From positions 1,860,001-1,924,000 of the forward strand of contig NZ_CP044065.1 in NCBI RefSeq assembly GCF_008693385.1: DNA of 64,000 nt. The letters are read 5' to 3'. Source of the DNA: Cupriavidus pauculus (GTDB lineage Bacteria; Pseudomonadota; Gammaproteobacteria; Burkholderiales; Burkholderiaceae). Positions 44,881-52,973 of this stretch are shown piece after piece. Within the stretch, counting starts at the first letter, position 1. Every line of letters starts with the position of its first letter. Position numbers and translations under genes: made by a program. A model generated the notes under the pieces. That model did not search any database. It was not told the origin of the DNA and was given only the letters and a program-made list of their open reading frames with translations.

Positions 44881-45837
44881 TTACGGTACCCACCAGAACC
44901 GCGTGATATGGAAGAACACGGGCGCCGCAAACACCACGGAATCGAGCCGGTCCAGCATGCCGCCGTGGCCCTGGATCATGTGCCCCCAGTCCTTGATGCC
45001 CCGGTCGCGCTTGATGGCCGACATCACGAGCCCGCCGAAGAACCCCATCAGCGCGATGACCAGCGCCACGGCCCCCGCCTTCAGCGGCGAACCGTAAGGC
45101 GTGATCCACCACAGCGACGCGCCCAGCGCCGTCGCGCTCAGCACGCCGCCGACAAACCCCTCGACGGTCTTGGAAGGCGACAGCGTCGGCGCGATCTTGC
45201 GCTTGCCGACGAGCTTCCCCCATACGTACTGCAGCACATCGCTGCCCTGCACCACGATCACGAGAAACGCGATCAACAGCAGGTTGCGCTCCTCGAAATC
45301 GGGAATCGGCAGCGTAAGCAATGCGGGCACGTGGGAGATGCAGAACACGCAGATCATCACCGCCCACTGCACGCCCGCGCATCGCTCCAGAAAGCGCGTG
45401 GTCTCCGAAGACACCGCGGCGAGAATCGGCAGGAACAGGAACGCATAGACCGGGATAAAGATCGAGAACAATCCATACCAGCCGATGTACACGAGCACGT
45501 ACTGCGCGGGCAGAAAGAAGAAGAACGCCGCGACGATCGCGCGATGGTCGCCGCGCCGCGTGGTGGTGATCGTCACGAACTCGCGCAGCGCATAGAACGA
45601 CAGCAGGCCGAACAGGATCACGATCGCGCCGCGTCCCATCGCGAACACCACGCCAAGAATGCCGATCATCCACCACCACGCGGAAACGCGCGACGCGAGG
45701 TTGTCGATCACGTTGTTGGGCTGGCCCTTCGCCACACGCCAGCGCAGGATCGACGTGACCAGCGACGCGAAAATCAGCACGCCGAACGCGCCGGCAAACA
45801 GCAATTGGGTCTCATGCATCATGTGCAGGCTCTGCAT
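44881..45837 (-). CDS. ynbB: YnbB-like CDP-diglyceride synthase (CdsA family)
   Basis: The 318-residue product has about eight membrane segments and the CdsA signature near its end: SAIKRDRGIKDWGHMIQGHGG, then LDRLDSVVFAAP, matching S-x3-KRD-x4-KD-x5-GHGG-x2-DRxD. CdsA makes CDP-diacylglycerol from phosphatidate and CTP at the inner membrane. The LSPSKTVEGFVGG segment is also conserved. It is the last gene of a six-gene operon and starts five bases after the acyltransferase stop. The normal housekeeping cdsA sits elsewhere in such genomes with the ispU/dxr genes, so this is a second, pathway-specific copy (inference). Confidence 0.88.
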   Translation of the reverse strand: MQSLHMMHETQLLFAGAFGVLIFASLVTSILRWRVAKGQPNNVIDNLASRVSAWWWMIGILGVVFAMGRGAIVILFGLLSFYALREFVTITTTRRGDHRAIVAAFFFFLPAQYVLVYIGWYGLFSIFIPVYAFLFLPILAAVSSETTRFLERCAGVQWAVMICVFCISHVPALLTLPIPDFEERNLLLIAFLVIVVQGSDVLQYVWGKLVGKRKIAPTLSPSKTVEGFVGGVLSATALGASLWWITPYGSPLKAGAVALVIALMGFFGGLVMSAIKRDRGIKDWGHMIQGHGGMLDRLDSVVFAAPVFFHITRFWWVP

Positions 45838-45842
45838 GGTGA

Positions 45843-46511
45843 TCAGTCTTCCAGCTCGGGGGCGATCGACAGCAGCCCATTCCGGGCGCGCTCGAGAAAT
45901 GCTTCCTTGGACTCGTCAGGGGCCAGCGTCAGCGGCGTGCCGAACGTCACCGTACAGAGCAGCGGCACCGGCACGATCTCGCCCTTCGGCATCACACGAT
46001 TGAGGTTGTCGATCCAGACGGGCACGAACTCGACGGGCGCATCGACGGTATCGGCCGTGCAGCTGCGCGCGAGGTGGTAGATGCCGCTCTTGAACGGAAG
46101 CAGCCGCGCGTCCGTCGTGTTGCGCGTGCCCTCGGGGAAGATGATCAGCGACGATCCGGCGGCCAGCGCGTCCTTCATCTGCGAGACCGGATCCGCGACC
46201 GCACCGCCGGCCGCTCCACCCTGCCCGCCGGTCCGATCGATCAGTAGCGCATGGAACACGTCACGCCCGATGAATCGCCGGAGCGGCGACTTCAGCCAGT
46301 AATCGGCGCCCGCCACGGGCCGCGTAGAAGGCCGCAGATCGGGTGGCAGGCTGCCCCAGATCAGCACGAAATCGCCATGGCTGCTGTGGTTGGCAAAGTA
46401 CACGCGCTGCGCGGCGGACGGGATGCAGCCGTTCCATCGCGCCTGCATACCGGTCAATAGCCGCGCAAAGCCGATGATCGCGCGCGCGACGAGTCTTGCT
46501 ATCCAGTTCAT
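45843..46511 (-). CDS. PlsC-type 1-acyl-sn-glycerol-3-phosphate acyltransferase
   Basis: The 222-residue product has the acyltransferase motifs NHSSHGDF (HX4D), LIDRTGG and FPEGTRN with a hydrophobic N-terminus (ARAIIGFARLLTG). It would transfer an acyl group to lysophosphatidate, giving the phosphatidate used by the following CdsA-like enzyme. E. coli ynbABCD lacks a linked acyltransferase, so this is an added step. It lies 28 bases downstream of the small membrane protein. A Gly-rich insert (TGGQGGAAGGAVAD) follows motif II. Confidence 0.87.
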   Translation of the reverse strand: MNWIARLVARAIIGFARLLTGMQARWNGCIPSAAQRVYFANHSSHGDFVLIWGSLPPDLRPSTRPVAGADYWLKSPLRRFIGRDVFHALLIDRTGGQGGAAGGAVADPVSQMKDALAAGSSLIIFPEGTRNTTDARLLPFKSGIYHLARSCTADTVDAPVEFVPVWIDNLNRVMPKGEIVPVPLLCTVTFGTPLTLAPDESKEAFLERARNGLLSIAPELED

Positions 46512-46539
46512 GCGGTAAAGACGTCCAGGAGAAAAGAAG

Positions 46540-47010
46540 TCATGACAGCCGCGCGAACAGGATCAGCATCGCGGCCACCCATTGCCATGCGGCCAGCAGC
46601 GCCGCGTATTTGAGGAAGCGGCTCGCGCCGCGCACACGATCGGCCAGCGGACGCGGCGGCAGCTTGCTCGCGTCGCTGGCGGAGATCCACCCGAGCGCGA
46701 CCATCGCGGCATCCAGCGAACGCAGATCGCCCTCGCCCTGCATATGCGCCAGTGCCGCGAACAGGCCCCGATCGATCTCGATGCGGATAAGCAGGACCAG
46801 CTGCGTCAGTGCGGCGAGTCCGCACAACGCGCCGATCCATAGCCACTGCGATCCGGCCGACAGCATGATGCCGGCCAGCAGCACATCGGCAAACGCAAGC
46901 ACGAGGCCCACCACATTGAGCCGCGCGGCCGCGCGCAGCGAAGCGTTGGCCGCATGCACGAGCCAGCGCGCGTCGAGGGGCGGCAGGGTAGCGTCGTCAC
47001 TGTGCGGCAT
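46540..47010 (-). CDS. Small membrane protein of the ynb-like operon
   Basis: The 156-residue product starts MPHSDDATLPPLDARWL. It has two paired hydrophobic segments (VVGLVLAFADVLLAGIMLSAG and LWIGALCGLAALTQLVLLIRI) and a terminal one (YAALLAAWQWVAAMLILFA). It ends in a short ARLS tail. I do not recognise a named family. Its start lies inside the ynbD-like gene (14-base overlap), so it is translationally coupled and likely to act in the same membrane complex or to protect a lipid intermediate; that is inference only. Confidence 0.75.
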   Translation of the reverse strand: MPHSDDATLPPLDARWLVHAANASLRAAARLNVVGLVLAFADVLLAGIMLSAGSQWLWIGALCGLAALTQLVLLIRIEIDRGLFAALAHMQGEGDLRSLDAAMVALGWISASDASKLPPRPLADRVRGASRFLKYAALLAAWQWVAAMLILFARLS

Positions 47011-48385
47011 GCGATGGCTCCACGAACTGCTCCACAAACGTTGTCAGCGCCGCCACGCTGGCGGGCCCCAGCACCACATGCGGCCGCGCCGCGCGCAGCG
47101 CGGCAAGCGCCTGCTCCGCCGTGCATCGCCGATGCACGGCCAGCCAGCATGCCACCACGAGCGCGCTGCGCGAATACCCGAGCGCGCAGGTGACCAGCAC
47201 GGTCCGCCCCTCGCGATGCCATGCCTCGATCTGCCGCACGGCGCGCTGCAACTGCGCCTGCGACGGCACCGTCAGGTCCAGCACGGGCACGCAGCAATAC
47301 GCATCGCTCTCCACTCGCCGCGGAAACTCGGCGGTCAGGTCCAGCAGCGCATCGGCATCCGCCTGCCGCATCTCGGCTTCGCCAGGCAGGCGGCCGATCC
47401 ACACGCCATCCGCCACGTGATCGACCGCCGCATGCCCGCGCGTCCACCAGCGCGAGTTGAGAAACGCGCCCGCCAGATACGGGGCGAGCATCCACCAGGC
47501 CGCCATCGGCAACGCGCCGTCGTCGCCCTTGCCAAAGCCTTCCGCGCGACCCATGCGATAGATCCATGCCACGCACAGCAACGCTAGCGCGACCCAGACG
47601 AGTACGAGCCATGCGGTCACGGAGACCTGCAAGGCGGCCAGCGACAGCAGCAGCACCACGCCGGCGCCGATGCCATAACGCAAGGCCAGCGCGCGCGCCC
47701 GCGGATCGATGCCCGACGGCTCGACGCCCACCGCCAGCCCCGTGGCTTCCGCGGGCACGACCGCGCGCGCGAGCGGAAACGCGAACACGCAGAGCCATCC
47801 CACGAGCCAGCCCGTCGGCAGGTCGATCAGGTGATGCTGGTAGGTCGTCAGCACCGACACGCCGATCAGCGCGAACCAGCCATGCAACAGCCACCGCCAG
47901 CGGCCGGACAGATGCAATGCATAGGCGACCCACAGCACGACCAGCAGGCTGATATGGAGCGACGGCGCCTGATTGAACGGCTTGTCGAACCCGCCGAGCA
48001 GCGTGAACAGCTGGCCCGCCCATCCATCGGCGGGCGGACGATCGAACGCAAACCGCAGCGGGAACGCGACAAAGCACACGACCGACACGACCTGCGCCAT
48101 CAGCAGGCGCTTCACGTGCGTGAGCAACCCTTCGCGCGTCCGCCACAGGAAGAACGAGAGACCGTACAGCAGATCGATCGACCAGTACGGCAGGATGGTC
48201 CACGGCACGAACGGGATATACCGCTCCCAGTCGTAGTGGAAGTACGGCACGTTCGCGCGCTGGCTTGCGAGCCAGTTGGCGGCGTTATAGGTGCCGAAGA
48301 AGAGCACCGCCATGCCGGCCAGCAGCGTAATGGCCAGCCCCCACGGGCGGCGTGCCGGTATTGCGCTGGCGACGACGCTTGCCAT
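46997..48385 (-). CDS. ynbD: YnbD-like PAP2/dual-specificity phosphatase membrane protein
   Basis: The 462-residue product has an N-terminal membrane PAP2 phosphatase domain with RFAFDRPP, QAPSLHIS and TTYQHHLIDLPTG. A C-terminal dual-specificity/tyrosine phosphatase domain follows, with the CX5R loop VTCALGYSRSALVV (C400, R406). This fusion is the architecture of E. coli YnbD. It could remove phosphate from a phosphatidyl-alcohol phosphate made by the YnbA-like enzyme. Its start overlaps the stop of the hydrolase-methyltransferase gene by one base (TGATG). Confidence 0.87.
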   Translation of the reverse strand: MASVVASAIPARRPWGLAITLLAGMAVLFFGTYNAANWLASQRANVPYFHYDWERYIPFVPWTILPYWSIDLLYGLSFFLWRTREGLLTHVKRLLMAQVVSVVCFVAFPLRFAFDRPPADGWAGQLFTLLGGFDKPFNQAPSLHISLLVVLWVAYALHLSGRWRWLLHGWFALIGVSVLTTYQHHLIDLPTGWLVGWLCVFAFPLARAVVPAEATGLAVGVEPSGIDPRARALALRYGIGAGVVLLLSLAALQVSVTAWLVLVWVALALLCVAWIYRMGRAEGFGKGDDGALPMAAWWMLAPYLAGAFLNSRWWTRGHAAVDHVADGVWIGRLPGEAEMRQADADALLDLTAEFPRRVESDAYCCVPVLDLTVPSQAQLQRAVRQIEAWHREGRTVLVTCALGYSRSALVVACWLAVHRRCTAEQALAALRAARPHVVLGPASVAALTTFVEQFVEPSHAAQ

Positions 48386-50181
48386 CACGCCACCCGCCGC
48401 GCGAGGCTCACGGTAAAGATGCCCCAGGGATCGATCCGCTGCGCGACTTTTTCGAACCCCGCTTCCCGCACGAGTTCGTCCATCTCCGCCTGCGAGCGGC
48501 GCCGCATGACCCATGCCGACCCCGCGCGATGGCTGGTCAGCGCGCGCGCGATGAATTCCAGCTGCGGATGCCACGGCTGCCCCGTGTAGACGAGGTACCC
48601 GCCGGGCCGCACCGCGCGAGACAGACCGCCGAGCGAGCGCGCCACCATCTCGTTGTCGCCGAACAGCTCGTACAACCCGGAGACGATGGCCAGCGTGGGC
48701 GCGGGATCCAGCGCGGCCAGACTCTCGGCATCGAACGCATCGCCGCGCACGAAGCGCGCCATATGCCCGAGCCCTTTCGCGCGGATCAGCGCGCTGCCCT
48801 GCTCGACATTGAGCTCGCTGTAGTCGCGCAGCAGGATGCTCTCCACGGCGGCGCCATTGAGCGCCCCGAGCCGCTGCTGCTGCGAAGCGAGCGCCTCCAG
48901 CACATAGCGGCCATGGCCCGCCGCGATATCGACGATCCGCGCCGGTGTGCCGGACGCATGCAATCGCGCGATCGCCTCGCCGATCAGTTCCTCGACGTGC
49001 ACCTTGCGCTGCCGGATACCGCGCCAGCCGATCGCATCGAGGTAATTGCGATCCATCACCTTGCCGATGCCGAATCGCCCCGCCGCCTCGTTGCGATACA
49101 CGTAATCGAGCGTCGATCCCGAATCGAATCCGGTCTCGTGGCCCAGCCGCACGCCGCGCGACAAGGTGCCGCCGAAGCGCAGGCCCGCGCGCGTGACCGC
49201 CCAGTACAGACCTGCCGGGCTCATCGGCGCCAGCGGTTGCGCGAGGCGATCGGACTCGTCGCGGAAGGGCCCTTCCCGGTCGGCGTGGCGCAGCGATACG
49301 CGCGCGGACGGCGCCTCGCACTCCTGCACGATAAACCGCCGCGCCGCGCTCACGGCCTTTGCGCGATCGCGCTCGCCCAGCGTGTCGTGATAGAAGCCGT
49401 CGAGCACGATCTTCTCCTTGACGCGCGCGCCCAGGCGATCGAAGAACGCATCCTGCGGTCCGCGATGGACTACCCAGTCCGCGCCCGAGATCAGCAGTTG
49501 CGTCGGCACCGTGATGGCCGCGGCATCCGCCACGATGCGCTCGGCCGCGTCGTACAGGTCGAGCAGAATGTTCACGGCGATCGGCCGCGTGATCAGCGGA
49601 TCGGTGTCGTAGCTCGCGATGCGTTCGGGATCGTGCGTGAGGAACTTCGCCTTGACGTAGCTGTTGACGAAGAACTTGCCGCGCAGCTTGTGCATCAGCC
49701 TGAGCCCCGGCCGCGCGAACGGCACATAGAGCTTGACCTTGAACGCCGGCGACGCCAGCACCAGTGCGCGCAGCGGCGGTGCGTAGTCGTGGACCCATGT
49801 GGACGCCAGCACCGCCCCCACGCTCTGCGCGACCACGGCCATCTCCGCGACGGCAATCCCGTAGGTGGCGCCGATATGATCGACAAAGGTCTGGATATCG
49901 CGCACCGATGTGGCCAGGCTCGGGCTGTAGCCGCGCTCCCCGGGCGACCGGCCATGCCCGCGCGCGTCCCACGCAAAGAATGCGTGCCCCGGCAGATCGA
50001 ATTCGTCCACGAGGTGCGCGACGCGCCCGGAGTGTTCATGGCCGCGATGGAACAGCAGGACCGCGCGCTTCGGCAAGGCGTCATCGACCGCCGCCCAGTA
50101 TCGGTAGAACAAGGTCTGGCCGTCGTGCGTCTGGAACTGCGATTCGATCGGGGTTCGCGGGGTTCGCGGGATAGAAGCCAC
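48385..50181 (-). CDS. ynbC: YnbC-like alpha/beta hydrolase fused to SAM-dependent methyltransferase
   Basis: The 598-residue product starts at GTG with a GAGGAG site. Residues 20-290 are a lipase-like alpha/beta hydrolase: FHRGHEHSGR, AWDARGHGRSPG, nucleophile S120 in VAQSVGA and FYHDTLGE with the catalytic His. Residues 330-595 are a class I methyltransferase with VDIAAGHGRYVLEAL, the acidic segment ESILLRDYSELNVEQG and a C-terminal AGFEKVAQRIDPWG. The hydrolase resembles monoacylglycerol lipases/lysophospholipases. The fusion matches E. coli YnbC. It probably removes an acyl chain and methylates the headgroup of a special lipid (inference). It starts six bases after the YnbA-like stop. Confidence 0.88.
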   Translation of the reverse strand: MASIPRTPRTPIESQFQTHDGQTLFYRYWAAVDDALPKRAVLLFHRGHEHSGRVAHLVDEFDLPGHAFFAWDARGHGRSPGERGYSPSLATSVRDIQTFVDHIGATYGIAVAEMAVVAQSVGAVLASTWVHDYAPPLRALVLASPAFKVKLYVPFARPGLRLMHKLRGKFFVNSYVKAKFLTHDPERIASYDTDPLITRPIAVNILLDLYDAAERIVADAAAITVPTQLLISGADWVVHRGPQDAFFDRLGARVKEKIVLDGFYHDTLGERDRAKAVSAARRFIVQECEAPSARVSLRHADREGPFRDESDRLAQPLAPMSPAGLYWAVTRAGLRFGGTLSRGVRLGHETGFDSGSTLDYVYRNEAAGRFGIGKVMDRNYLDAIGWRGIRQRKVHVEELIGEAIARLHASGTPARIVDIAAGHGRYVLEALASQQQRLGALNGAAVESILLRDYSELNVEQGSALIRAKGLGHMARFVRGDAFDAESLAALDPAPTLAIVSGLYELFGDNEMVARSLGGLSRAVRPGGYLVYTGQPWHPQLEFIARALTSHRAGSAWVMRRRSQAEMDELVREAGFEKVAQRIDPWGIFTVSLARRVA

Positions 50182-50186
50182 GGCAC

Positions 50187-50825
50187 TCACTCCTCGGTGG
50201 ACGGCGTGCTGCGCGATGATGCGGCGCGCGCTACGGTAGCTTCCTGCACGCCACGCTGCACGCGCCGTACGATGGTGGCGATGGAGAGCAGGCACAGCAC
50301 GCCCCAGATCCAGCCGCCATAGTGACCGGGACCGAAGCCGAGGCCCAGCCAGAGCCCGAGCGCGCCGAGCACGAACGCGCGGTCGCTCTTGCCGAGCGGG
50401 CCGTCGTAGCGGCGGCTGGCGCCGACCATCGGCCCGATAAGTCCCGCGCACTCGACCATCACGGCGAGCACGGCGAACGGCAGGACGCCGGTACCGAACG
50501 GCAGTACGAATGGAATCACGAGCGCGAGGTCGGAGACGATATCGCCAAGTTCGTTGAGGTAGGCGCCGAGCACACTCTGCTGGTTGTGCTCGCGGGCCAG
50601 CATGCCGTCGATGGCATTGAGGGCCATGCGCAGGAACAGCCAGACCGGCATCAGCAGGAATATCCCCGGCAGCCAGATCAGCGCGCCCACGAGGCCGCCC
50701 ACGACGATCGACCCCACCATGGCCGCGAGGGTCACCTGATTGGCGGTAACGCCGCGCGCGGCCAGCTTTTGCACGAGCGGCCGAAGCCGCGCCTGGAATT
50801 TCGGTTTGATCTGGTAGAGCGTCAT
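50187..50825 (-). CDS. ynbA: YnbA-like CDP-alcohol phosphatidyltransferase
   Basis: The 212-residue product begins MTLYQIKPKFQARLRP, close to YnbA as I remember it. Six membrane segments surround the CDP-alcohol motif: N70-A-I-D73-G74-x2-A77-R78-x8-G87-x3-N91-x3-D95. The usual first and third metal-binding aspartates are both Asn (N70, N91), so the metal site differs from PgsA/PssA-type enzymes. It would condense CDP-diacylglycerol with an alcohol. GVTANQVTLAAMVGS and SDRAFVLGALG are further family marks. It is the first gene of a tightly spaced six-gene operon. Confidence 0.87.
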   Translation of the reverse strand: MTLYQIKPKFQARLRPLVQKLAARGVTANQVTLAAMVGSIVVGGLVGALIWLPGIFLLMPVWLFLRMALNAIDGMLAREHNQQSVLGAYLNELGDIVSDLALVIPFVLPFGTGVLPFAVLAVMVECAGLIGPMVGASRRYDGPLGKSDRAFVLGALGLWLGLGFGPGHYGGWIWGVLCLLSIATIVRRVQRGVQEATVARAASSRSTPSTEE

Positions 50826-51068: not shown

Positions 51069-52535
51069 ATGACCAAGCAACTCGTACGCGTGGAATCGGG
51101 CGTACCCGGACTGGACACCATCCTGTGCGGCGGCCTGGTCCAGGGGGCGTCCTACATCGTGCAGGGCAGTCCCGGCGCCGGCAAGACCATCCTTGCAAGC
51201 CAGTTCGCGTTCCGTCAGGTGCGCGGCGGTGGGCGAGTCCTCTACGCGACGCTACTTGCCGAGTCTCATGACCGCCTCTTCCAGGCGCTCTCGACGTTCG
51301 ACTTCTACGACCCATCGATCGTCGGCCAGGACATCTTCTACATCAGCCTGTTCAAGGTCCTGCGCGACGAAGGCCTCCCCGCGCTCGTCAATGCGCTGCG
51401 CGCCGAACTCGCGCGCCAGCGCTGTACCACGCTGGTCCTCGACGGCCTGCTGATCGCAAAGGATCGCGCGGAGACCGCGCTCGACGTCAAGACGTTCGTC
51501 GCCGAACTGCAGAGCCATGCCGCGTTCACGGGCTGCACGGTGCTGTTCCTGACCAGCGCGCGCGTCGATGACGTGAGCCCCGAGCACACGATGGTCGATG
51601 GCGTGCTGCAGCTCAAGGAAGAACTGGTCGGCATCCGCACCGTGCGGCTCATTCGCGTGTCCAAGTCGCGCGGCAGCGCGGCGCTAGGCGGCTATCACCA
51701 GTACCGCATCTCCAATCAGGGCATCGACGTCTATCCGCGCCTGGAGGCACAGCACGGCAGGCCGTCCGAGGACGAGGTGGTCGTGCACGCGCGCGCCGCG
51801 AGCGGCGTCGATGGCTTCGAGGCCATTACCGGCGGCGGCATTACCGCTGCATCGGTCTCCCTGCTGCTGGGGCCCGCCGGCAGCGGCAAGACCACGTTCG
51901 GCCTCAACTTCCTGCACCAGGCCACGCCGGAGGCGCCCGCGCTGTATTTCGGCTTCTACGAATCGCCGAAGCGGCTGCGCGCGAAGGCGCAGGCCCTGGG
52001 CATCCCGCTGGAGCCGCTGGAACGGTCGGGCGCGCTGCATATCGACTGGCATCCGCTCACGGAGAACCTGCTGGACTCGCTCGGCCATCAATTGCTCAAT
52101 ACCGTGCGCGCGAAGGGTATCCGCAGGCTGTTCGTCGATGGCATTACCGGCTTCGAGCGCGCGGCGGTGCACCCTGCCCGGCTCGTCGAGTTCTACACCG
52201 CGCTCTCCAACGAGCTGCGCACCCTCGGCGTGACGGCCATCGGCACGCTGGAGACGCGCGACATCCCGGGCGTGACCGGATTCCACACGCTGCCCGAGTA
52301 TTCGAGCCTGATGGACAACCTCGTGTCGCTGCGGCACGCCGTGATCAACGGCGAACTGCGACGGTTCATCAGCATCGTCAAGATGCGCGACAGCGCGTTC
52401 GACAATGGACTGCACGAAGTGCAGATCGGCCAGGGTGGCCTGCAGGTACGCAGTCGCATGACGATCACGTCCGACGCGTTCGGCGGACAGCAGGCAACCT
52501 TTGAATCCGGCCAGCAACTTTCCGCGCGGATCTGA
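51069..52535 (+). CDS. KaiC-like ATPase with two RecA domains
   Basis: The 488-residue product has two KaiC-type ATPase domains. Domain 1 has VESGVPGLDTILCGGLVQG and Walker A GSPGAGKT (33-40) with acidic strand TLVLDGLL. Domain 2 has GVDGFEAITGGGI and Walker A GPAGSGKT (268-275) with LFVDGITGFE. The double-domain layout equals cyanobacterial KaiC, but the Ser/Thr autophosphorylation region cannot be confirmed. No kaiA or kaiB is nearby. The partner is the single receiver protein that follows after three bases. Such pairs occur with LabA, histidine kinases or GGDEF proteins in proteobacteria and are linked to stress or signalling, with few assigned roles. Confidence 0.88.
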   Translation: MTKQLVRVESGVPGLDTILCGGLVQGASYIVQGSPGAGKTILASQFAFRQVRGGGRVLYATLLAESHDRLFQALSTFDFYDPSIVGQDIFYISLFKVLRDEGLPALVNALRAELARQRCTTLVLDGLLIAKDRAETALDVKTFVAELQSHAAFTGCTVLFLTSARVDDVSPEHTMVDGVLQLKEELVGIRTVRLIRVSKSRGSAALGGYHQYRISNQGIDVYPRLEAQHGRPSEDEVVVHARAASGVDGFEAITGGGITAASVSLLLGPAGSGKTTFGLNFLHQATPEAPALYFGFYESPKRLRAKAQALGIPLEPLERSGALHIDWHPLTENLLDSLGHQLLNTVRAKGIRRLFVDGITGFERAAVHPARLVEFYTALSNELRTLGVTAIGTLETRDIPGVTGFHTLPEYSSLMDNLVSLRHAVINGELRRFISIVKMRDSAFDNGLHEVQIGQGGLQVRSRMTITSDAFGGQQATFESGQQLSARI

Positions 52536-52538
52536 TCC

Positions 52539-52973
52539 ATGGCAACCGTAGTCGTCATCGACGACGAAACGATGAATGCCGATGCGCTGGCGTTCATGCT
52601 CTCCACCGAGGGCGTGCGCGTGGTGACGGCCGCCGACGGTGCGGAGGGGCTGCGCGTGATTGCCGCGGAGTCCCCCGACGTCGTCGTGACCGATTTCATG
52701 ATGCCGGTCATGACGGGGCTCGAACTCGCCCGCGCGTTGCGCACGGAGCCGCAGTACGCGGCCTATGCCCATCTTCCGCTGATTCTGCTGACCGCCGCGC
52801 AGGCCGATATCGGCCGCAGCCATCCCGAACTGTTCGATGCGGTGCTCGAGAAGCCTTGCCCGCCCGCCGACGTCATTGCCACCGTGCTCGAATGGATCTG
52901 CAAGCGTGGCGGCCCCAGCGGGGACGGTGGCAATACCGGCGGCAACAACGGCGGCAATAGCGACGCACCATGA
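52539..52973 (+). CDS. Single-domain response regulator
   Basis: The 144-residue CheY-like receiver has the acidic pocket IDDE (D8, D9), phosphoacceptor D52 in VVVTDFMMP, T85 and K105 in LEKP. There is no output domain. A Gly/Asn-rich tail (GGNTGGNNGGNSDAP) follows residue 125. It starts four bases after the KaiC-like gene, so it probably controls that ATPase or relays its state. No histidine kinase gene is adjacent, so its phosphodonor is encoded elsewhere. Its stop overlaps the LysR start (ATGA). Confidence 0.88.
   Translation: MATVVVIDDETMNADALAFMLSTEGVRVVTAADGAEGLRVIAAESPDVVVTDFMMPVMTGLELARALRTEPQYAAYAHLPLILLTAAQADIGRSHPELFDAVLEKPCPPADVIATVLEWICKRGGPSGDGGNTGGNNGGNSDAP

Follow-up and report, generated by a model that had tools for sequence, protein, structure and literature searches.

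A YnbABCD-like operon of Cupriavidus pauculus and its CDP-alcohol phosphatidyltransferase-fold protein with two asparagines in the signature motif

Introduction

The Escherichia coli K-12 operon ynbABCD (b1408-b1411) encodes homologues of four of the six proteins of an operon of Cupriavidus pauculus that is the subject of this report, and which lies in a 64,000-nucleotide stretch (positions 1,860,001 to 1,924,000 of contig NZ_CP044065.1; hereafter, the window) of a 7.06 Mb genome in three contigs. Both operons encode a YnbA protein in which two of the four signature aspartates of the CDP-alcohol phosphatidyltransferase family are replaced by asparagine (the N/N state, as opposed to D/D). It is this class of transferases and its partners, a YnbB-type CdsA and a PlsC-type acyltransferase, that constitute the main interest of the locus, and not the two genes that E. 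coli K-12 lacks.

Papers are cited here by PubMed Central (PMC) number and from extracts, to which the statements drawn from them are limited. The original prediction held that ynbABCD had never been given a function, which is partly outdated. YnbB shares with the housekeeping CdsA its C-terminal catalytic half and signature. It differs from CdsA in the N-terminal half and makes CDP-diacylglycerol in vitro, yet cannot support phospholipid synthesis (review, PMC7018664). Its overproduction raises the level of membrane protein integrase (MPIase), a ynbB knockout has normal MPIase, and CdsA cannot be replaced by YnbB (PMC6362211); a further review ties YnbB to diacylglycerol-pyrophosphate-linked N-acetylglucosamine (GlcNAc-PP-DAG; PMC10881803), while ynbB is dispensable for phosphoglyceride-linked enterobacterial common antigen (PMC8609368). 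MPIase biosynthesis, in which GlcNAc-PP-DAG is made via CdsA or YnbB, is thus a second described setting for YnbB, with no role for YnbA, YnbC or YnbD reported in the extracts of PMC6362211 and PMC7018664, the former of which do not mention YnbA. The claim also overlooks tests of YnbD, to which no function has been ascribed and which failed to complement the loss of phosphatidylglycerol phosphate (PGP) and undecaprenyl pyrophosphate phosphatases (PMC7413402). A cholinephosphotransferase annotation of YnbA was withdrawn (PMC3781023), ynbC appears in a mutation table (PMC13313352), and the extracts of PMC12419801 do not mention "ynb". Among the literature matches listed, from open-licence papers, none describes the N/N motif or the six-gene set, and matches for CDP-alcohol transferases with Asn in the motif, bacterial PTPMT1-like enzymes, the gene set by product names, and PF12147/YnbC likewise included nothing describing this system.

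The Cupriavidus operon

The six genes, predicted from the sequence alone as a leftward series at 44881-50825, are confirmed as open reading frames that overlap or are closely spaced, with gaps of 5, -1, -14, 28 and 5 bases (A/C, C/D, D/S, S/P and P/B). They are given here in order of transcription, with the single letters used below:

50187..50825, minus strand: A, YnbA-like protein with the CDP-alcohol phosphatidyltransferase fold, 212 residues, N/N motif variant
48385..50181, minus strand: C, YnbC-like protein, 598 residues, GTG start; monoacylglycerol-lipase-type hydrolase fused to Methyltransf_20 (from Pfam, PDB sequence search and E. coli identity)
46997..48385, minus strand: D, YnbD-like protein, 462 residues; membrane PAP2 domain followed by a C-terminal dual-specificity phosphatase domain (from Pfam, PDB, E. 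coli identity and motifs)
46540..47010, minus strand: S, 156-residue membrane protein without a Pfam or NCBIfam family, a regular operon member
45843..46511, minus strand: P, PlsC-type acyltransferase, 222 residues, with HX4D and FPEGTR (from PF01553 and an own-family profile)
44881..45837, minus strand: B, YnbB-type CdsA (phosphatidate cytidylyltransferase), 318 residues, dissimilar to CdsA in its N-terminal half (from PF01148 and E. coli identity)

The ynbABCD-like identity of A, C, D and B is upheld by 44.6, 58.5, 40.7 and 36.2% identity, respectively, to the proteins of E. coli K-12 MG1655, so that homologues of all four stand in one operon; that of E. coli differs in its order, A-B-C-D, and in having neither S nor P. 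Pfam assignment is strong for C (Hydrolase_4, 237.6 bits; Methyltransf_20, 496.3 bits), for P (Acyltransferase, PF01553, 55.4 bits) and for B, which passes the cut-off of CTP_transf_1 (PF01148, 223.9 bits) and carries the C-terminal signature. A passes CDP-OH_P_transf (PF01066) narrowly, with 27.2 bits against a cut-off of 22, and D passes DSPc (PF00782; 58.8 bits, cut-off 33.5) while its PAP2 region remains under the cut-offs of PF01569 (23.8 bits against 27.2) and of PAP2_3 (23.0 bits). No family in Pfam or NCBIfam matches S. The closest relative of the YnbC-like protein among the best 80 of 545 database matches is from Cupriavidus pampae (92%).

An N/N class of CDP-alcohol phosphatidyltransferase-fold proteins

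The canonical motif of the family is D1xxD2GxxARx8GxxxD3xxxD4 (PMC8633023). The YnbA of the window departs from this family-defining motif, with Asn at both D1 and D3 (sequence and alignment):

50541..50618, minus strand: YnbA motif N70-xx-D73-G-xx-A-R-E79-x7-G87-xxx-N91-E92-xx-D95

All 125 motif-bearing YnbA matches are in the N/N state, and E79 and E92 are invariant in the same 125; an alignment of 20 YnbA proteins shows no variation at D2, in the DG-xx-AR core, at G87 or at the putative base D95. The four CDP-alcohol transferase paralogues of the Cupriavidus genome are D/D, as are 51 of 53 control matches, the other two (L214, L223) giving no motif match. Since Asn occupies both positions in all 125 motifs and neither E79 nor E92 varies in them, the N/N site looks selected rather than decayed. 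Some departures do exist: of the 54 genomes of the phylum that encode YnbA or a sister-type protein, one (G347) has Ala for the first Asn, a sister subfamily is devoid of the motif Arg while keeping the Asn, D2, E79 and D4, and distant relatives have Asn at R78 and Lys at E79 (Fusobacterium) or Lys at R78 (Moraxella). The fold of YnbA nevertheless matches that of phosphatidylinositol phosphate (PIP) synthases, in agreement with PF01066, and these are also the nearest proteins of known structure by sequence.

The substitution is at odds with the mutagenesis data published for this family, and it poses a direct enzymological question. In MjPSS, the phosphatidylserine synthase of M. jannaschii, D1 and D3 contact both metals, all motif mutants (to Ser or Asn) had lowered or lost activity, and the loss caused by D62N, at the third Asp, was restored negligibly or not at all by Mg2+ (PMC8633023). 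The inactivity of D62N leaves room for a YnbA that is non-catalytic or that uses a different acceptor; and since changes such as those of YnbA crippled a related enzyme, YnbA may perform chemistry that is so far undescribed.

The P-B pair as the core of the system

Genome searches covered the window's phylum and, beyond it, plasmid records, phage records and, for family searches, 14 control genomes. A YnbA alignment, run against 397 phylum genomes at E <= 1e-12, gave 41 strong matches (at least 172 bits) and 14 weak ones (52-72 bits), which correspond to the sister subfamily. With a YnbB-type alignment, YnbB-like genes (at least 250 bits) were found in 81 places in 78 phylum genomes, other CdsA scoring about 145 bits or less among the rows listed, with a single 172-bit fragment in between. 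The two protein types co-occur strongly: of the 54 genomes, out of 397, that encode YnbA or a sister-type protein, 52 contain a YnbB-type CdsA as well (Fisher p 8e-43, species relatedness not being corrected for). They are also neighbours, 48 of 55 YnbA or sister places (35/41 YnbA, 13/14 sister) being within 9 kb of a YnbB-type gene.

The acyltransferase belongs to the same neighbourhood. P and B adjoin 13 of the 14 sister genes (the exception being L168), and in another 20 loci of the YnbB type, P adjoins B in 19. YnbC, by comparison, is within 4 kb of 31 of the 41 YnbA genes; eight of the ten YnbC-less YnbA genes are in A-P-B or A-B-P triads, the other two being a partial YnbA next to a partial B (L151) and a gene without partners in the stretch read (L152). 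Neighbour counts around YnbA, sister and YnbB-type genes therefore identify P-B as the tightest pair, often joined by A, with C-D-S as an optional module present in only part of the lineages. The six-gene set, put forward in the original prediction as the unit, thus gives way to a core of YnbB and P, often accompanied by an N/N transferase.

B and P stand apart from the other members of their families in the genome. A profile of YnbB proteins gives B 527 bits and a second CdsA-type gene, located elsewhere in the genome, 74; B itself scores 93.9 bits with the phosphatidate cytidylyltransferase equivalog NF008635, below its cut-off of 385. An own-family profile gives P 326 bits, against 22-32 for four other PF01553 proteins of the genome. 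Active-site motifs are well kept in both groups of relatives: GHGGxxDRxD[SG] in 117/117, SPxKTxEG in 115/117 and K[RS]DxxxKD in 88/117 for B, and NHxSxxD in 116/116 and FPEGTR in 114/116 for P. YihG was considered as the missing P of E. coli and rejected, as the P profile does not find it; E. coli PlsC scores 41.5 bits with this profile.

A possible secondary phospholipid pathway

We infer the reaction order, the nature of the product and a hand-over of substrate from B to A on the basis of what was observed, namely gene content and order, co-occurrence, motif states and fold likeness. The reading that we favour, by a modest balance of probability, is that the operon is a dedicated secondary glycerophospholipid pathway beside the housekeeping one, with a catalytic YnbA. 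P, judging from its family, would acylate lysophosphatidate to phosphatidate, which B would convert with CTP to CDP-diacylglycerol, a reaction known in vitro for E. coli YnbB (review, PMC7018664). The nucleotide lipid would then pass to A, the usual partner of B; this hand-over is suggested by the inability of YnbB to feed bulk phospholipid synthesis, and partnership with YnbA would in turn offer a reason why YnbB makes CDP-diacylglycerol but cannot replace CdsA. A, its metal site altered by the two Asn, would move the phosphatidyl group onto an acceptor, and C, D and S would lastly tailor the product through phosphatase (PAP2 and dual-specificity), acyl hydrolase and methyltransferase activities, with S as a putative accessory membrane subunit. 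The operon is not the sole such pathway of its host, because the genome has the additional CdsA and, besides YnbA, four CDP-alcohol transferases. It is possible, if more doubtful, that the N/N proteins (YnbA and the sister subfamily) form a new mechanistic class, marked by two neutral Asn for metal-contacting Asp and a conserved acidic residue beside the second Asn, that transfers the phosphatidyl group of YnbB-supplied CDP-diacylglycerol to an unusual, perhaps phosphorylated, acceptor, yielding a class of lipids that has yet to be seen in E. coli and other proteobacteria.

Several observations weigh against a catalytic YnbA at work in such a pathway. Besides the MjPSS mutants, these are the E. 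coli operon, which is devoid of P; the six of 41 YnbA places without a YnbB-type gene within 9 kb; and the 33 of 81 YnbB-type places where, with the threshold applied, no N/N match lies closer than 9 kb. Of 20 of the latter that were inspected, nine have a sister-type N/N protein below the earlier threshold, ten have P and B with no complete N/N transferase in the vicinity (L253 and L258-L266, with a weak partial sister match in L258), and one has B alone. Furthermore, the product, proposed to be a methylated or lyso-phospholipid, and the enzyme activities are predictions. The expectation that every enzyme step would be present is borne out in part: P, B, C and D retain most of their catalytic motifs, and the transfer step is non-standard, because YnbA has lost two of the four signature aspartates.

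Four other readings were weighed. YnbA could be a non-catalytic partner or scaffold of YnbB that binds CDP-diacylglycerol, leaving the chemistry to other operon proteins. The replacement of the metal-coordinating D1 and D3 of MjPSS by Asn, the inactivity of motif mutants including D62N (PMC8633023), and the further motif changes in the distant Fusobacterium and Moraxella proteins are all in line with this idea, which we consider unlikely without being negligible: of a degenerate partner one would expect more variation than is seen, with D2, the DG-xx-AR core, G87, D95, E79 and E92 invariant in the YnbA sets compared, and the sister subfamily retains its Asn, D2, E79 and D4 despite the missing Arg.

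Quite unlikely, in our estimate, is a YnbA that transfers the phosphatidyl group to a phosphorylated acceptor such as a sugar-1-phosphate. The products would then be lipids linked through diacylglycerol pyrophosphate, as in GlcNAc-PP-DAG, the first MPIase intermediate. Two Asp-to-Asn changes would reduce the negative charge where the phosphate of the acceptor would sit, overproduction of YnbB, the partner of YnbA, raises MPIase, GlcNAc-P-dependent synthesis of GlcNAc-PP-DAG was seen in membrane vesicles and, in the extracts, not with purified enzymes (PMC6362211), YnbB is described as dedicated to MPIase in the title of a paper cited there or in a review, and the YnbD phosphatase domains could act on pyrophosphate-linked products. 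Set against these are the normal MPIase of the ynbB knockout (PMC6362211), the dispensability of ynbB for phosphoglyceride-linked enterobacterial common antigen (PMC8609368), the lack of sugar enzymes in the operon, and the retention of the putative base D95, superfluous with a phosphate acceptor.

Back-up synthesis of phosphatidylglycerol, with YnbA as PGP synthase and YnbD as a PTPMT1-like PGP phosphatase, is very improbable: the dual-specificity domain of YnbD does match PTPMT1 (3rgo, E 2.6e-6; PDB search), behind other phosphatases, but E. coli YnbD fails to complement a PGP phosphatase-deficient temperature-sensitive strain (PMC7413402), the paralogues of the genome and all readable controls are D/D, and YnbC is left without a place. 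We give equally little credence to a PIP pathway as in mycobacteria or Bacteroidetes, since the resemblance of YnbA to PIP synthases in fold and sequence, and its NCBIfam scores of 57.7 bits (archaetidylinositol phosphate synthase) and 37.9 bits (PIP synthase, NF045883), are offset by cut-offs of 180 and 170, respectively, by 16-23% identity to the actinobacterial enzymes RsPIPS (5d91), MkPIPS (6wm5) and MtPgsA1 (6h53), by Asp at D1 and D3 in PIP synthases (in alignments, the mycobacterial ones) where YnbA has Asn, and by the inositol-1-phosphate synthase family (PF01658), which, unlike in the PIP synthase pathway, has no match in the Cupriavidus genome (six of 14 control genomes match).

Conservation and order of the six-gene set

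The methyltransferase half of YnbC (PF12147) occurs in 20 of 120 family genomes and in 31 of the 397 phylum genomes; in the latter, all 31 YnbC genes have YnbA at most 4 kb away, and the genes thus travel together rather than occurring mostly apart. Gene order was compared in 127 loci selected by YnbC (E. coli, the best 80 of the 545 database matches, and 46 from the family and phylum genomes), several of which share a genome, so that counts are not independent. Of the 127, 81 show the order A-C-D-S-P-B, more than chance would give; in 27 more, B and P point away from A-C-D-S (18 in Burkholderia, nine from the family and phylum genome sets), and the remainder are variants or contig-end cases. 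S is present in 120, the seven others being E. coli, L141, L142, and four short or cut contigs (L031, L037, L060, L073). These counts make P and S normal members and not, as had been proposed, additions to an E. coli-like operon: the six-gene set is the usual state, and E. coli K-12 is a reduced exception. The survey of genomes for the regular presence of these two genes thereby came out in favour of the proposal that had called for it, and the observation holds up: the gene set is well conserved, and its generality goes beyond what had been thought. A Pseudomonas contig (L094:7308-7984) has a ynbA apparently split by a frameshift.

The set is found in beta- and gammaproteobacteria and also in the alphaproteobacterium Shinella, where a plasmid record has all six genes with A divergent. 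Of 72,556 plasmid records, 30 match, and a phage origin was rejected, with zero YnbA matches among 50,697 phage records. Other arrangements occur. A 2.1 Mb Fusobacterium vincentii record filed as a plasmid has the order C-A-B, and a cyanobacterial plasmid has A-B-P with an unfused Methyltransf_20 protein. On a Moraxella osloensis plasmid (L245:6956-9448), YnbA and the start of YnbC are in one frame, with an in-frame stop inside YnbC, and nearby are genes for a patatin-type phospholipase, a short-chain dehydrogenase/reductase (SDR), a YnbB-type CdsA, and separate dual-specificity phosphatase and PAP2 proteins. Because the patatin of Moraxella and the stand-alone methyltransferase of the cyanobacterium represent the two activities on their own, acyl hydrolysis and methylation are suggested to be separate steps.

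YnbC, YnbD and the small membrane protein

The proteins of the optional module are likewise conserved at their catalytic positions. In YnbC relatives, the nucleophile motif, the acid and the S-adenosylmethionine motif are each present in 126/126 (exact AQSVG in 94), and the catalytic His motif in 125/126 by one pattern and in all 126 by tally. The closest solved proteins are monoacylglycerol lipases (E 2e-17; PDB search), and for the methyltransferase domain a profile search of the PDB gave six sequences at E <= 0.01, weak matches to other S-adenosylmethionine-dependent methyltransferases. YnbD relatives have HHxxD in 123/123, PSLH in 122/123 (PSMH in L120) and [KR]x4RP in 105/123 and, in the dual-specificity phosphatase domain, whose PDB matches are protein-tyrosine phosphatases, CX5RS in 122/123, the exception being on a short contig; His precedes the Cys in only one of 123. 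The model of S consists of long helices with a predicted local distance difference test (pLDDT) score of 91.9, and D80, D100 and R125 are invariant in 26 aligned sequences; comparison of its fold with the PDB gave no match at E <= 0.001, the listed TM-scores being under 0.5, an absence that says little.

Occurrence in E. coli, and flanking genes

Among 5426 complete E. coli genomes searched at megablast sensitivity, 4579 match ynbABCD, 4242 of them holding at least 80%, and 847 give no match. K-12 carries most of the pathway, and with such uneven presence the product could be sought among natural strains. In one strain (L240:7670-8292), a deletion runs from pdxI into ynbD, so that just one end of either gene is left. 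The arrangement A-B-P-C is found on plasmids of E. coli (L241:12017-15934 and L244:7001-10918); Tn3 transposase, colicin and toxin-antitoxin genes are in the stretch of L241 that was read.

The YnbA nearest to that of E. coli in the tree comes from a locus with A-B-P beside azoR (L150). Directly upstream of its ynbA-ynbB-P genes (L150:10045-13203, minus strand) are genes for YdbH (PF11739), of intermembrane phospholipid transport, and for a YdbL-type protein (DUF1318); in K-12, ydbH-ynbE-ydbL is about 31 kb from the ynb operon. A link between the ynb set and phospholipid transport is possible, from this one genome.

In the window, a KaiC-like gene, a response regulator gene and an SDR gene were considered as operon members and excluded, because among loci of at least 8 kb only L017 has them as well. 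The KaiC-like gene, which encodes a double KaiC-like ATPase, and the response regulator gene occupy 51069-52973, upstream of the operon and divergent from it.

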